This document shows positions 3,467 to 57,352 of a stretch of 64,000 nucleotides of DNA, piece by piece. The DNA is from Paenibacillus sp. CAA11 (GTDB lineage Bacteria > Bacillota > Bacilli > Paenibacillales > Paenibacillaceae). Each line of letters opens with the position of its first letter. Positions within the stretch are counted from its first letter, which is position 1. The notes beneath the pieces were generated by a model. The model saw only the letters and a program-made list of their open reading frames with translations. It ran no database searches and was not told the origin of the DNA. The DNA lies in the NCBI RefSeq assembly GCF_003060825.1, contig NZ_CP028922.1:2525001-2589000 (forward strand), given 5' to 3'. The translations under genes were made by a program, and so were the position numbers.

Positions 3467-3495
3467 AAAGAACTTCCCCCGTAGAGGAAGTTCTT
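3467..3495. terminator. Bidirectional terminator between mocR-type gene and yidC2
   Basis: The stem AAAGAACTTCC / GGAAGTTCTTT has a short loop. It is flanked by A-rich DNA on the left (T run for the minus strand) and ends in TTT on the right. It separates two convergent genes. Confidence 0.85.
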
Positions 3496-3515
3496 TAGCT
3501 GAAAAAAAGATATGG

Positions 3516-4346
3516 TTATGCTTTAGCAATCTTGTCCTGAGTCGCCCGGTCTTGAGGTTCAACGGGTTCCACCGGATAGAGCTTGCGGAACAACAAATTC
3601 TGAAGCAGCAGGAAGGTTCCGCCCACCATCCAATAAAGAGGCAGCGCCGCTGGTGTATTGAATGAGAATACCAGCATCATGATAGGTGAGATATATCCCA
3701 TTAACGCTAACTGCTTCTGCTGCTCAGCAGGCATATTCTTCTGGGACAACTTAGTCTGAAGCAGGTAAATGACTGCAACGATTATCGCCAACATATGATC
3801 CGGTTTGCCTAATTGAAACCAGAGAAAAGAATGAGATGACAATTCTGGGGTTAGGCGAATAGCCGTATACATTCCTGATAAAATAGGCAGCTGTATTAAC
3901 ACCGGTAAGCATCCGATATTTAGCGGGTTGAACTGGTGTTTTTTATATACAGCCATCGTCTCTTCCTGCAGCTTAAGCTGCGCGTCACGGTCCTTCTTCC
4001 CTGCATATTTCTCCTTAATCCGGTCCAGATCAGGCTTCATCAAATTCATCGTTCTTCGCATCTTCTGCTGGTTCCGGGCTTGCTTCATCATCAAAGGCAT
4101 CAGGGCAATCCGTACCATCAGAGTGATTACCATAATAGCAAGCCCGTAGCTTCCGCCAAACCAATCCGCAAGATGCCGGACTAGATAGGACAGCGGAAAT
4201 ACTACATAATGATTGAAGAAACCAGGTGTATTTGAATCAATGACCTTCGTATTTGTGCCGCATGCCGACAGCAGAAGAACCAGCATTATGACACCGATAA
4301 GTCCAATAATCCGTCCCTTGGAAGTGAATCCTTTATTTGATCCCAT
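3516..4346 (-). CDS. yidC2: Membrane protein insertase YidC2 / Oxa1 family (lipoprotein type)
   Basis: This 276-residue insertase of the YidC/Oxa1/SpoIIIJ family inserts membrane proteins with or without Sec. It has an N-terminal signal with lipobox LLLSACG (Cys29), then hydrophobic segments around 66-88, 140-160, 184-200 and 215-250. The family-typical arginine of the hydrophilic groove is in TLMVRIALMP (Arg79), and the C-terminal tail is charged. The start is fixed by AGAGGAGGA 5 bases before ATG 4346. That Shine-Dalgarno is paired in a 12-bp hairpin, and the gene overlaps by 61 bases an upstream small ORF that resembles a translational sensor. Its expression is probably tuned by the state of membrane insertion, as for B. 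subtilis yidC2 under MifM. Confidence 0.93.
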   Translation of the reverse strand: MGSNKGFTSKGRIIGLIGVIMLVLLLSACGTNTKVIDSNTPGFFNHYVVFPLSYLVRHLADWFGGSYGLAIMVITLMVRIALMPLMMKQARNQQKMRRTMNLMKPDLDRIKEKYAGKKDRDAQLKLQEETMAVYKKHQFNPLNIGCLPVLIQLPILSGMYTAIRLTPELSSHSFLWFQLGKPDHMLAIIVAVIYLLQTKLSQKNMPAEQQKQLALMGYISPIMMLVFSFNTPAALPLYWMVGGTFLLLQNLLFRKLYPVEPVEPQDRATQDKIAKA

Positions 4347-4636
4347 GTAAATCCTCCTCTTGATTGTAGGTATAACTTCAACGAGGAGGAAGTACAGTCC
4401 GTATTGACATCTTCGTCAGGTGATTCTTTCCTTCGAATCATCCTTGACAGCCGGACCGGGCTCTCACACCGAATTATAACTACAATTGGCTGAGGATAAT
4501 CACTGTTCCAAAGACGCCCGCTTTCGATCCTGCATTCCTGTAGCCCACAATACAAATGGGCTATATAAGCATAGCTTACCGTACAGATCAAACCAATGGA
4601 GAATAAATAAGGAAGCATGTCGCTTAATTCAAACAA
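4286..4636 (-). CDS. MifM-like small membrane leader peptide upstream of yidC2 (candidate arrest peptide)
   Basis: This 116-residue ORF starts at TTG 4636, 8 bases after a consensus AAGGGAGG; a GTG at 4645 is in frame but overlaps that site. It encodes an N-terminal hydrophobic span (LPYLFSIGLICTVSYAYIAHLY), a soluble linker, then RLSRMIRRKESPDEDVNTD. I recall B. subtilis MifM as an N-terminal membrane span followed by an arrest stretch with an R-I-T-T-x-I-R-K core and an S-P...D-E-E-D stall zone, so the spacing and chemistry match. The DED codons (4417-4409) lie ~20 bases before a hairpin that hides the yidC2 ribosome site; a ribosome stopped there would open it. A promoter sits just upstream. 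The ORF runs 61 bases into yidC2 in another frame. Arrest function is inferred. Confidence 0.7.
   Translation of the reverse strand: MFELSDMLPYLFSIGLICTVSYAYIAHLYCGLQECRIESGRLWNSDYPQPIVVIIRCESPVRLSRMIRRKESPDEDVNTDCTSSSLKLYLQSRGGFTWDQIKDSLPRDGLLDLSVS
4352..4390 (-). promoter_or_regulatory. Hairpin sequestering the yidC2 Shine-Dalgarno
   Basis: On the minus strand TCCTCCTC-G-TTGA (4390-4378) is complementary to TCAAGAGGAGGA (4363-4352), giving 12 pairs with one bulged G and a 14-base loop. The 3' arm contains the whole yidC2 ribosome site AGAGGAGGA; the 5' arm is coding sequence of the leader ORF. Ribosomes pausing on the leader near codons 77-81 would reach the 5' arm and free the site. Confidence 0.8.
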
Positions 4637-4669
4637 AGGACTCACCTCCCTTCTAGATACTTAATCGTT

Positions 4670-4699
4670 ATTATATCAAATAACTATTCCTTGTTACAA
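4670..4699 (-). promoter_or_regulatory. Sigma-A-type promoter of the leader-yidC2 unit
   Basis: TTGTAA (4699-4694), an 18-base spacer and a perfect TATAAT (4675-4670) lie 34 bases upstream of the leader start, leaving a short 5' untranslated region. Confidence 0.65.
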
Positions 4700-4975: not shown

Positions 4976-5520
4976 CTATCAAGCTTGAAAATCGCCAATT
5001 TCAACACATGTCTTTCGAATTGACGCATCTTTGAACACACGCTCCGCGGCTCTTTAAGATCTTTAGCGGTTAAGCTTCTGGATTCAGGTGGATACCTGCA
5101 CCGATTTCATCCACACACCGCGCAACAATAGGCTGGTCGGCGCTTTGAGGAAGTACAATCAGCGGCACACCATAATAAAGGCTTTCGCTGGTACTATTCA
5201 TGTCTCCATGTGTGATAAACAACTTGGCCTTCTGCAGTACTTCGAGTTGCGGCACGTAATTGCGGACAATAAAATTCGCAGGAATATCTTCGAAATCCGC
5301 AATCTCCGGGTATGTCTGTCAACAGATAGAATGACGGTGCATTCCGTTTCAGCGAACGCCGTAAAGCATAGCCTGTAAAAATCCAATGCTTGATTGAATA
5401 CCGTGCCTTGACTCGACGCGATCACGAAACTGATCCATTTTAAAGTAAACCACCTCGCCCTCAGCTGATTTTTCACGTAGGCCCATAATCCCATTTAAGA
5501 TCGTGTATAGCAACTGTTTG
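4976..5520 (-). pseudogene. Decayed MGT-family (macrolide/UDP-glycosyl) glycosyltransferase
   Basis: Three frames together give an MGT-like protein. An N-terminal scrap EGEVVYFKMDQFRDRVES runs abruptly into GTVFNQALDFYRLCFTAF, a domain normally ~200 residues later, implying an internal deletion. Around 5310 the frame shifts into FEDIPANFIVRNYVPQLEVL, followed by LFITHGDMNSTSESLYYG (family GGMNSTSEALYYG) and ADQPIVARCVDEIGAG. At ~5070 it shifts again into LTAKDLKEPRSVF and ends in a stop near 4976. At least two frameshifts and a deletion make it non-functional. Intact members transfer sugars to macrolides or flavonoids. It is flanked by two similar repeats, suggesting a duplicated regulatory region or a horizontally gained unit now decaying. 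Confidence 0.85.
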
Positions 5521-20248: not shown

Positions 20249-20254
20249 ATGTAA

Positions 20255-20405
20255 TCCTCCTTCGAATTGCCTCCGAGGTTAGTTGTCGGATTCGGACCCA
20301 AGGATGGCCCGGCGCTAAGAGTAAAGCGCTTCACCCCAAGAAGATAAACGTTCATCTTCGGAAAAATCATCCCCCGTTCCCTGCTGTATAGGGATTCGGC
20401 ACTCC
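20255..20405 (-). ncRNA. Cyclic di-AMP riboswitch (ydaO-yuaA type)
   Basis: Reading the minus strand: CCGAATCCCT...CAGGGAACGGGGGA, then TTGGGGTGAAGCGCTTTA, GCCGGGCCATCC, GGGTCCGAATCCGACA and CTAACCTCGGAGGC, directly before the ribosome site of the LysM-3D gene. The blocks GGGGUGAA, GGGUCCGAAUCCGACA and CUAACCUCG are hallmarks of the ydaO/yuaA leader that binds c-di-AMP and usually turns expression off. Exact borders are approximate. Confidence 0.9.
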
Positions 20406-20464
20406 CCAAATATATCACAAATTTGTAACCTTTGATTCAGGTAAGTGTTACCACCTATGGAACA

Positions 20465-29932: not shown

Positions 29933-31833
29933 ATCGAGTAGGAGGCTATTCATTAGATGAGTAGCCGACCTCTCACACCACCGTACGTACCGTTCGGTAT
30001 ACGGCGGTTCAACCGCATAAGTGCAATTTACGTAAACGCTCGTATTGCGCAGGAAAGTCATAATATCCTGCCTGTACGAGCTTTTTGTTTGTTATGGAAC
30101 GAGACAACACTGGACTTCCGGCGATGCGCCAGTACCCGAGACGGGAATTGCCCCACTGGTAAGCCTGCCATTCCGGTATCCCCAGCTTCCGCAGGTTTTG
30201 TACTTTTGTTCGCGGCTTTTTCCACTGTTTCCAGATGTACATCCGCAGTCGTCTTCGCAACCATTCGCTCCAGCTTTGCAGGATCCGTTTCATGTCGGCC
30301 ACATAGTAGTAACCAATCCATCCCCGAATGTAGACTTTTACCTTTTCCATGACTTGGCGAACATTTCTGCCCTGGCTGCGACTTGTGAGTTCTTTCAACT
30401 TCTTCTTCGCTTTTGCGAGGGATTGTCCATGGGCACGGATATACATGCCGTTCTTGTTCTTTCCCAGGGCAAAGCCGAGAAATTTGAAGTGCTTTCGAGC
30501 CACTACGCTACCGACCTTACTTTTCTGCGTATTGATCTGGAGTCTCAGTTTGGTCTCCAGGTACTTTCCGCAGGATTCCAGTAGCCGCACCGCTGCCCGT
30601 TTGCTTTTGGCAAGCACCACAATATCGTCCGCATAGCGGATGACGTTCACTCCGCGGCCTTTCATCTCTTGGTCAAATTCGTTCAGGTAGATGTTCGCCA
30701 GAAGCGGCGACAGGGGGCCTCCCTGAGGGGAGCCTTCTTCTGTTTTGCAGTGCACCCCGTTCTCCATAACCCCACTTTTCAGGTATCTCTTAATCAGTTC
30801 GGTTACGCGTCTGTCCTGAATTTGTTTGCGCAAAAGATGCATAAGCAGCTCATGATTCAGCGTGTCGAAGTATTTGGAGAGGTCGATTTCTACTGCGTAG
30901 CCGTATCCCTGTTCTGCATAGTCTTTCACCTTGCGAATGGCCTGTTGTGCGCTCCGACCGGGGCGGTAGCCATAGCTTCCCTCCGAGAAGAGCGGCTCGA
31001 ACAGGGGCTGGAGCTGCTGGGCGACTGCCTGCTGAATCACTCGGTCTACGACCGTGGGTATGCCAAGCTTCCGTACTCCGCTTCCATCTGCTTTGGGAAT
31101 TTCCTTGCGCCGTACTGGGCTGGGCTTGTATCTGCCTTCCCGGATCTTTTGCAACAGCTCGTCTCTATGTTCCTGCAGCCAGGGTAGCGCGTCTTCTACG
31201 GTCATTCCGTCGATTCCTGGCGCTCCATGGTTGCGTTTGACCTGTTTGTAGGCTCTGTTCAGATTGTCTCTGTCCAGAATCTGCTCCAGCAGGTCTGTTG
31301 CACCGCCTCTTTCTTTACGTTCCCGAGTACCGGCGCTCCGCACTCCCGCATGCTCTTCGCGTTCCACGCTATCCCTTTGCAGGTAGCCCTTTCGGTATTC
31401 TGCTTTCATCGCGTCAGCTCTCCTTTCGGTATGTACTCGAGACTTACGATTGTTCGGCCCTTCCCCGAAAAAAAAACCTTCCGGGTACTATGGCCTCTGC
31501 TGACTTCTCACAGCAAGCTTTACTCCGTCTTTCGGTTTTTTTTTCCTACTTGTCGTCTGTGAGACCTCCCCGGGTAAGAGCGATAACCTTCCCCTCATCT
31601 ATCTGCCACATTTACACCATGGGATTCGGGCAGTATTGGACTTTGCTTTGTAGTGCAAGCTCGTCCGTCCCATGATGCCTTCTATGTGATTTCTGTTCGT
31701 CAGACCGAGGGTTTGCCTCCGGCTTCCTTCAGATTCCGCCTCGCGGCGGACACCCTTGCCTTCAGCTAACAGTTCCTACTGCCAAGCCTGTAGCGGACTT
31801 TCACCGCCGAGTTATCGCCCATGCCGGGCGCAC
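29933..31833 (-). mobile_element. Group IIC (bacterial class C) intron
   Basis: About 1.9 kb on the minus strand. The 5' end GTGCGCCCGGCATGGG and the following AAGGGTGTCCG...GAATCTGAAGGAAGC block closely resemble the Oceanobacillus iheyensis group IIC ribozyme as I recall it. Domain IV holds the reverse transcriptase. Domain V (30010-29974: GAACCGCCGTATACC-GAAC-GGTACGTACGG) matches the same intron, and a domain VI hairpin GGCTA...TAGCC ends near CTACTCGAT. The 5' junction abuts a terminator stem (31837-31863), the target preference of class C introns. Borders are good to a few bases. It separates glgC from its terminator, in antisense. Confidence 0.92.
30009..31409 (-). CDS. ltrA: Group II intron-encoded reverse transcriptase/maturase
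   Basis: This 466-residue intron-encoded protein promotes splicing and retrohoming. RT blocks include GAPGIDGMTVED, RPLG-type IPTVVDRVIQQAV, GYRPGRSAQQAI, EIDLSKYFDTLNH, EGSPQGGPLSPLLANIYLNEFD and the active-site RYADDIV (~255). The maturase X domain follows (KVKVYIRGWIGYYYVADM). The C-terminus ends in YYDFPAQYERLRKLHL without an HNH endonuclease domain, as expected for class C. It appears intact. GGAGAG lies 8 bases before ATG 31409, and the stop touches domain V. Confidence 0.95.
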   Translation of the reverse strand: MKAEYRKGYLQRDSVEREEHAGVRSAGTRERKERGGATDLLEQILDRDNLNRAYKQVKRNHGAPGIDGMTVEDALPWLQEHRDELLQKIREGRYKPSPVRRKEIPKADGSGVRKLGIPTVVDRVIQQAVAQQLQPLFEPLFSEGSYGYRPGRSAQQAIRKVKDYAEQGYGYAVEIDLSKYFDTLNHELLMHLLRKQIQDRRVTELIKRYLKSGVMENGVHCKTEEGSPQGGPLSPLLANIYLNEFDQEMKGRGVNVIRYADDIVVLAKSKRAAVRLLESCGKYLETKLRLQINTQKSKVGSVVARKHFKFLGFALGKNKNGMYIRAHGQSLAKAKKKLKELTSRSQGRNVRQVMEKVKVYIRGWIGYYYVADMKRILQSWSEWLRRRLRMYIWKQWKKPRTKVQNLRKLGIPEWQAYQWGNSRLGYWRIAGSPVLSRSITNKKLVQAGYYDFPAQYERLRKLHLCG

Positions 31834-57114: not shown

Positions 57115-57229
57115 ATTCTCGATATGGCTGCGTTCAGCAAGTCTTCACAGTGACTGTACTAAAAATCACCGTATTGTTCCGCTGATCATATTAATATACG
57201 CCGCAAAGGCCGTATGTCCATATCGAATA

Positions 57230-57322
57230 CCCACTTCCCTACGCTGGCATAATCCAGATCAGGTTGTAAGGGTCCGGCAGATTCATCCCCCGTCTCAGCC
57301 GCCTAATTCGCAGCTCCCCTAG
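57230..57322 (-). ncRNA. TPP (thiamine diphosphate) riboswitch
   Basis: Reading the minus strand: GGGGAGCTGCGAA, GGCTGAGACGGGGG, GACCCTTACAACCTGATCTGG, ATGCCAGCGTAGGGAAGTG. These are the conserved THI-box blocks, including CUGAGA and the ACCUGAUCUGG...UGCCAGCGUAGGGAA arm. It governs thiS-thiF. Confidence 0.96.
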
Positions 57323-57352
57323 TGAATAATTCAATTGTGTAACTGGAGTGAT

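Follow-up and report, generated by a model that had tools for sequence, protein, structure and literature searches.

The window (the whole 64,000-nt stretch of Paenibacillus sp. CAA11 analysed here) carries a small open reading frame (ORF) in front of a second yidC gene, and the question that it raises is whether this leader monitors YidC activity by arresting its own ribosome, in the manner of MifM, and, if so, whether by descent or by convergence. We consider it highly probable that the leader is a MifM-family arrest peptide that monitors YidC and switches on yidC2, and we infer the arrest, its response to YidC and the purpose of reading on into yidC2. The testable sequence-level elements of the known MifM scheme are all present at the locus, which forms a transcription unit on the minus strand with the following parts, in order:

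4670..4699, minus strand: promoter-like site TTGTAA, 18 nt, TATAAT, with TG before the second hexamer (consensus scan)
4645..4651, minus strand: leader Shine-Dalgarno (SD) sequence AGGGAGG, 8 nt before the TTG (sequence)
4286..4636, minus strand: leader ORF, TTG at 4636 to stop at 4286, 116 codons, probably of MifM type (sequence and aligned relatives)
3516..4346, minus strand: yidC2, second YidC/Oxa1 insertase gene, 276 aa (PF02096, 148.5 bits)
3467..3496, minus strand: intrinsic-terminator-like hairpin after yidC2 (sequence scan)

The promoter-like site is a consensus match, not proof of a promoter, and its function is putative. TTG 4636 is a likelier leader start than the upstream GTG 4645, because the latter overlaps the end of the SD; a similar purine-rich SD precedes the assigned start in relatives. 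Assigned by sequence pattern, the starts of 79 leaders (the window and L018 included) are TTG in 71, ATG in 4 and CTG in 4, so that a weak start codon seems to be kept, as far as assignments of this kind can tell. The sequence-only reading had placed a small ORF upstream of yidC2, and it had the coordinates and the start right; the ORF is, however, not only upstream, since it overlaps the first 61 nt of yidC2 in another frame. Of the two PF02096 matches in the genome (a single contig of 4,888,410 bases), one is yidC1, near 4.88 Mb, and the other is the yidC2 of the window. Elsewhere in the window, several short overlapping ORFs at 5070-5513 resemble the remains of one broken gene, which we take to be UDP-glycosyltransferase-like, and the minus strand holds a c-di-AMP (ydaO/yuaA) riboswitch (20252-20411), group II intron matches (29933-31750; one Intron_gpII and two D1-D4 pieces) and a TPP riboswitch (57219-57330).

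The leader travels with yidC2. Among 195 genomes, the window's own included, a YidC2 match (E <= 1e-70) occurs in 58 and a match to the leader profile A2 (31 Paenibacillaceae leaders of 33 representatives, L092 and L108 being left out) in 60 at E <= 0.01; both are found in 57 genomes, and all 57 leader matches directly adjoin yidC2. One genome (G141) has yidC2 and no leader profile match, and G049, G051 and G162 have weak leader matches (7.2e-4 to 1.8e-3) and no yidC2 by the E cut-off; these are the 3 stray matches, best E 7.2e-4, among the 137 genomes without yidC2. By inspection, all 30 loci closest by yidC2 (the window and 29 others, of 58) carry the leader. A search of 5.8 billion proteins returned 43 leader proteins, and the names shown were hypothetical or uncharacterized protein; six leaders searched against Pfam matched no family, and NCBIfam gave a single chance-level match (L010, E 0.13). 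Within the window's own genus, yidC2 was found in one of the 40 genomes searched, that of the window alone, and the leader goes with it. This yidC2 may have been gained or may be a sole retention; in the tree it sits on a long branch beside the P. amylolyticus group with weak support (81/42). In one metagenome-assembled genome (L063, 4157-4360), the leader frame is interrupted some 11 codons upstream of the motif described below, and in the near relative L064 it is intact; the stop in L063 may be a sequencing error or may mark a lost span.

Two parts of the peptide stand out:

4550..4615, minus strand: hydrophobic segment, residues 8-29, presumed membrane span (hydropathy and dN/dS)
4394..4453, minus strand: RLSRMIRRKESPDEDVNTDC, residues 62-81, presumed arrest motif (dN/dS and profile match to Bacillales leaders upstream of yidC)

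Judged by hydropathy only, the leader has a single hydrophobic segment, at about residues 8-29, in agreement with the one N-terminal span first described; its Kyte-Doolittle maximum of 1.57 (residues 8-26) lies slightly below the usual cut-off of 1.6, and we presume an N-out/C-in orientation. The R...IRR...SPDED motif likewise reads as described, V61-RLSRMIRRKESPDEDVNTD-C81, and RLSRMIRRKESPDEDVNTDC is the presumed arrest motif, with a stall predicted at Asp80/Cys81 (4394-4399). From the end of the span, at about residue 26-29, to Asp80 there are 51-54 residues, and the soluble part exceeds 30 residues; the median span-to-arrest spacing of MifM is 54 residues in the available text of a published survey (PMC10987492). 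The same text looks for an acidic stretch between residues 70 and 100 with a local charge below -0.3 in 5 residues, and PDEDV (residues 73-77), read by eye, holds three acids in five. Cys81 has a counterpart in 29 of the 30 loci picked by yidC2 (L032 lacks it), preceded by Asp in 23. The position matching W73/I74 of MifM, residues that matter for stalling according to the part of PMC4423224 at hand, is a hydrophobic Leu in 31 of the 33 representatives, preceded by Trp in 12 of the 33.

Is this likeness due to descent? The sequence-only reading had offered either a diverged member of the MifM family or a convergent analogue; that pair of options holds, with homology favoured because a blind genome search with A2 and two linked profile comparisons point the same way. 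In hhalign both steps of the link were significant: A2 against A5 gave 97.3% (E 2.6e-11) and A4 against A5 gave 95.5% (E 1.6e-8), A4 being 11 sequences of the Bacillus subtilis group, several of them named MifM or regulator of OxaAB translation, and A5 being 13 of 24 loci of non-Bacillus-group Bacillales, picked by eye with 11 omitted as near-copies or for divergent motifs. A further alignment, A1, holds the leader of the window and those of 18 of the 29 relatives. In the blind search, A2 matched 93 of 249 Bacillales genomes at E <= 1, and its best 32 matches (E <= 0.0032) are each no more than 128 nt away from a yidC match; matches 33 to 38 are not beside yidC, the first off-target one having E 0.0044. 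The Bacillus subtilis group is absent from these 32 best matches. For the 249 genomes the order name Bacillales is inferred, as the leader of G256 and a protein from a named Bacillus share 94% identity.

An independent origin, in which the likeness would be convergence on a basic-then-acidic stretch, is improbable but has points in its favour: the direct comparison of Paenibacillaceae leaders (A2) with MifM of the Bacillus subtilis group (A4) is not significant (5.7%, E 0.0068; 25.5% in a one-sequence comparison), and CliM, another yidC arrest peptide, has no sequence similarity to MifM in the available text of PMC13183943. Against it, the Paenibacillaceae profile finds leaders adjoining yidC across Bacillales, among them the intermediate motifs RIVKRKEAPEDDAD (L127) and WLSKIIRRKDCPSDDGSD (L139), MifM in turn links to a Bacillales set, and the spacing from stall to start, given below, is the same. 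The window leader is thus probably a member of the MifM family, on a case that is indirect but well supported. The likeness to the MifM stretch itself was only partly as first drawn: the basic-then-acidic motif stands, but in the family alignment the S-P pair of B. subtilis MifM is shifted by one residue. An ungapped alignment of RKVKRKESPDDDTSNC with MifM RKVFRMNSPVNDEED, anchored on the S-P that both contain, was dropped as the main alignment, since the Bacillus-group S-P falls one residue out in both the Bacillales and the profile alignments. Under a loose leader rule, all 30 of the best Bacillales yidC2 loci (L119-L148) have a MifM-like leader; their motifs range between DDED and DDGSDH, and IKIDPGDED occurs as a variant.

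Selection on the leader was estimated with the Nei-Gojobori method in three clades of 23, 14 and 7 equal-length leaders, drawn from loci L033-L112, the best 80 of 91 that a scan for [RK]R[KR]E[AS]PD[EDG]D had preselected; the values sum all pairs and are estimates, not independent tests. In the span (codons 2-32), dN/dS is 0.04, 0.08 and 0.11, values that the preselection leaves unaffected, and in the linker it is 0.14, 0.20 and 0.33. From the motif up to the Cys it is 0.10, 0.02 and 0.03 (motif dS 0.42-1.79), although here the preselection helps for nine of the nineteen motif codons. Between the Cys and the ATG of yidC2, dN/dS rises to 1.18, 2.31 and 0.50, and in the part inside yidC2, which the yidC2 frame constrains as well, it is 2.63, 0.36 and, for want of any synonymous change, undefined. 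Constraint on the peptide therefore ends at the conserved Cys, being strong in span and motif and relaxed from there on; the low dS of the leader tail is put down to the SD and anti-SD. Amino-acid conservation in relatives, whose absence the sequence-only reading had named as counting against it, was thus tested and is present, with the leader in 57 of the 58 yidC2 genomes and dN/dS of 0.02-0.11 in span and motif. Invariance of R, E, P and D in L033-L112 was dropped as evidence because the scan itself had selected on those residues; conservation was judged on the loci picked by yidC2 and on dN/dS.

Three features go beyond the first description of the locus, namely the conserved Cys81, the overlap with yidC2 and a hairpin that would hide the SD of yidC2. 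The last of these is made of two strands:

4383..4390, minus strand: predicted anti-SD strand TCCTCCTC, codons 83-85 (RNA fold and covarying stem in relatives)
4352..4359, minus strand: SD arm of yidC2, GAGGAGGA, predicted to pair with 4383-4390; the leader frame reads Arg-Gly-Gly here

The window region folds at -25.6 kcal/mol (z -2.49, with 4 of 200 shuffles folding equally well), and its SD has an unpaired probability of 0.00, compared with 0.27 in shuffles, none of 60 being as low. Over 72 distinct regions, the mean unpaired probability of the SD is 0.20 compared with 0.34 when the upstream part is shuffled (single-base shuffles, 60 per region). Burial of the SD does not beat shuffles everywhere: in L105, 57 of 60 shuffles were at or below the observed value. 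Alignment A6 takes in 46 of the 55 loci whose motif lies 95 nt from the start; they give 41 distinct rows, and the window, at 98 nt, is not among them. Pairing of the stem holds in 93.4% of the cells of A6, compared with 84.0% in shuffles, and 38 cells show changes on both sides, compared with 13.1; neither value was equalled in 500 shuffles, although the stem was read from the same sequences that were tested, and rows that share ancestry may surpass shuffles even where no structure exists. Stems slid along A6 pair in only 28-70%. In the window, an outer stem joins the Cys codon to the A of the yidC2 start codon and the three bases that precede it; apart from this Cys codon, the motif lies outside the hairpin. 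These analyses predict a covarying hairpin that hides the SD of yidC2 and that a stalled ribosome would open.

The geometry agrees with such an opening. The leading edge of a ribosome lies about 15 nt past the P-site codon, and the anti-SD strand starts about 7 nt past the first base of the Cys codon, so that much of the strand would be covered with either Asp80 or Cys81 in the P site. When the fold of the 72 regions was scanned (positions counted from the first base of the Cys codon), the median unpaired probability of the SD rose from 0.20 to 0.49 once the leading edge passed +9; the SD of the window was freed only to 0.33. From the presumed stall site to the start of yidC2 there are 53 nt in the window (from Asp80), 52-60 nt in 79 Paenibacillaceae leaders with a mapped start (53 in 57 of them) and, in Bacillales, 52-58 nt in 24 of 25 loci and 45 in the other (25 of 30 loci entered). 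The distance from the motif to yidC2 is 94-102 nt in the 79 leaders and 98 nt in the window.

Downstream of the Cys, the peptide sequence is free to change but the frame stays open:

4286..4393, minus strand: leader tail, unconserved but open, running through the SD and start of yidC2 (dN/dS and stop counts)

In 31 representatives, the leader frame has no stop in 202 codons between anti-SD and SD, compared with 12 in 200 and 10 in 171 in the other frames, and between the Cys and the ATG it has a stop in 1 of 32 (L018), compared with 20 and 12 of 32; all three frames are subject to shared ancestry, and the stops counted are not independent of one another. Of the 30 loci picked by yidC2, 28 have a leader that extends past the start of yidC2, with an overlap of 31 to 163 nt; the two others, L018 and L030, stop 36 and 21 nt before yidC2. 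Likewise, of the 79 leaders whose yidC2 start was mapped, 78 overlap (from the window, 78 of the 80 scan loci and L018, which is the exception; L098 and L106 misfit the motif pattern, and L111 is without a mapped start). As an exclusive hallmark of Paenibacillaceae the overlap was ruled out, since Bacillales leaders overlap too: 3 of the 30 best loci chosen by Bacillus YidC2, where the other 27 stop 13-52 nt before yidC2 (loose leader rule), and 11 of the 19 assessable among the 20 leaders nearest A2 (L154 was not assessable), the two sets having three genomes in common (G714, G664 and G611). At the SD, the leader frame reads RGG in most leaders; as a peptide motif this was ruled out, being the SD of yidC2 read in frame, from which L024, L026 and L108 differ. 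These three leaders read the SD in other frames and still overlap the start, so the overlap survives changes of frame.

Two readings without arrest were weighed as well. That the leader is an ordinary small membrane protein, translationally coupled to yidC2, would accord with a membrane span under selection, but is very unlikely, given that protein-level selection ends at the Cys codon, right before the anti-SD strand, that the motif-to-yidC2 distance is held within so narrow a range in the 79 leaders, and that the ORFs of L018 and L030 end only 5 and 7 codons past the Cys. An RNA hairpin with an accidental open frame can be dismissed almost entirely, for although the hairpin by itself is strongly supported, constraint on RNA does not explain a motif dS of 0.42-1.79 with dN/dS of 0.02-0.10, in a motif outside the hairpin save for its Cys codon.

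For the arrest peptide that we favour, the following course of events can be proposed. In the known scheme, as far as the available texts give it, arrest opens the hairpin and turns yidC2 on, and insertion into the membrane releases the arrest (PMC6037786, PMC13183943). Here, the leader peptide would be targeted to the membrane by its N-terminal span and, at low YidC insertase activity, the basic-then-acidic motif would stall the ribosome when about Asp80/Cys81 has reached the peptidyl transferase centre; once stalled, the ribosome would cover the anti-SD strand, the hairpin would open and yidC2 would be translated. At sufficient insertase activity, insertion would pull on the nascent chain and release the arrest, upon which the hairpin would re-form and yidC2 would be turned off. 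The released ribosome would read through the SD and start codon of yidC2 and end 61 nt inside the gene. This read-through may keep slow termination away from the switch zone, in which a pausing ribosome would prevent the hairpin from closing, and therefore only the arrested state would switch yidC2 on.

More tentatively, and with the balance somewhat against it, the locus might represent a second architecture of arrest switches, in which the leader is kept open through the loop, the target SD and the start codon, and a near-invariant Cys marks a defined stall site. If so, what matters would be the passage of the released ribosome, not the amino acids of the tail, and the switch would have three states: stalled (target on), passing (start swept clear) and empty (hairpin shut). 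The Cys stall site would perhaps need Cys-tRNA in the A site, unlike the multisite arrest at the DEED cluster.

Compared with known systems, the leader is closest to MifM (YqzJ) of B. subtilis, the leader of yidC2/yqjG, which is likewise a leader ORF before a second yidC and shares an N-terminal hydrophobic segment followed, some 50-55 residues on, by a basic-acidic motif; in B. subtilis, too, a hairpin hides the SD of yidC2 in the available text of PMC6037786. In the Bacillus-group loci L119-L124 the yidC2 start follows the acidic end by about 53-57 nt, as it does in the window, but their mifM stops 27-33 nt before yidC2, whereas the window leader overlaps it by 61 nt. In B. subtilis the leader stop lies a few codons after the arrest site and before the SD of yidC2, which is not so in the window; an early leader stop is not among the criteria for classifying MifM in the part of PMC10987492 at hand. 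The window leader ends in PDED-VNT-D-C, where MifM has DEED-AG; in place of the essential DEED cluster of MifM it has DEDVNTD, its proline stands one position farther away from the Trp/Ile anchor, and its clade has, unlike MifM, a near-invariant Cys (29 of 30 loci). Many of the Bacillales leaders L125-L168 carry W[LI]x[KR]x[IV][RK]RKxxPxDDxxD beside yidC2, and several overlap it, although most of those chosen by likeness to Bacillus YidC2 (27 of 30 loci) stop before yidC2, unlike the window leader.

The available text of PMC13183943 counts three yidC arrest peptides: MifM, ApcA and CliM. CliM (uC_KYxIW) of Clostridia is also a leader that monitors YidC, and it too has a membrane span and a stem-loop that hides the SD (PMC13183943), but its arrest sequence is unrelated, with a KYxIW motif (PMC10987492, in the part available); by eye, the 116 residues of the window leader contain no K-Y-x-I-W. 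ApcA of actinobacteria also precedes a second yidC and has a membrane segment, in the available text of PMC7897499; its arrest motif is RAPG, and neither this nor any R-A/G-P/G-P-like motif of the RAPP/RAGP peptides (SecM, ApcA, ApdA, ApdP and RQH) was seen by eye in the 116 residues. The 2024 survey drew 572 MifM sequences from 592 Firmicutes genomes; Paenibacill is not mentioned in its main text, as available, and its supplementary list may include Paenibacillus members (PMC10987492). Literature searches, whose coverage leaves subscription journals outside, found no paper on MifM and Paenibacillus and, for arrest peptides and Paenibacillus, only a paper on motility by its title; by title and start of abstract, those on Paenibacillus and YidC2 included none on a leader, and no title among the matches listed concerned an arrest leader overlapping its target.

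Sensing of the MifM type is already known; what differs from the textbook case is a leader frame that runs through the SD and start of its target. On our reading, ribosome arrest would serve to sense YidC quality in Paenibacillaceae as well as in Bacillus, and dozens of natural variants of a single arrest motif share a tightly kept geometry of stall, hairpin and start. This set of variants is ready for dissecting how acidic arrest motifs work, and the overlapping layout allows one to ask directly if a ribosome, once freed from arrest, acts on the start site of the target.
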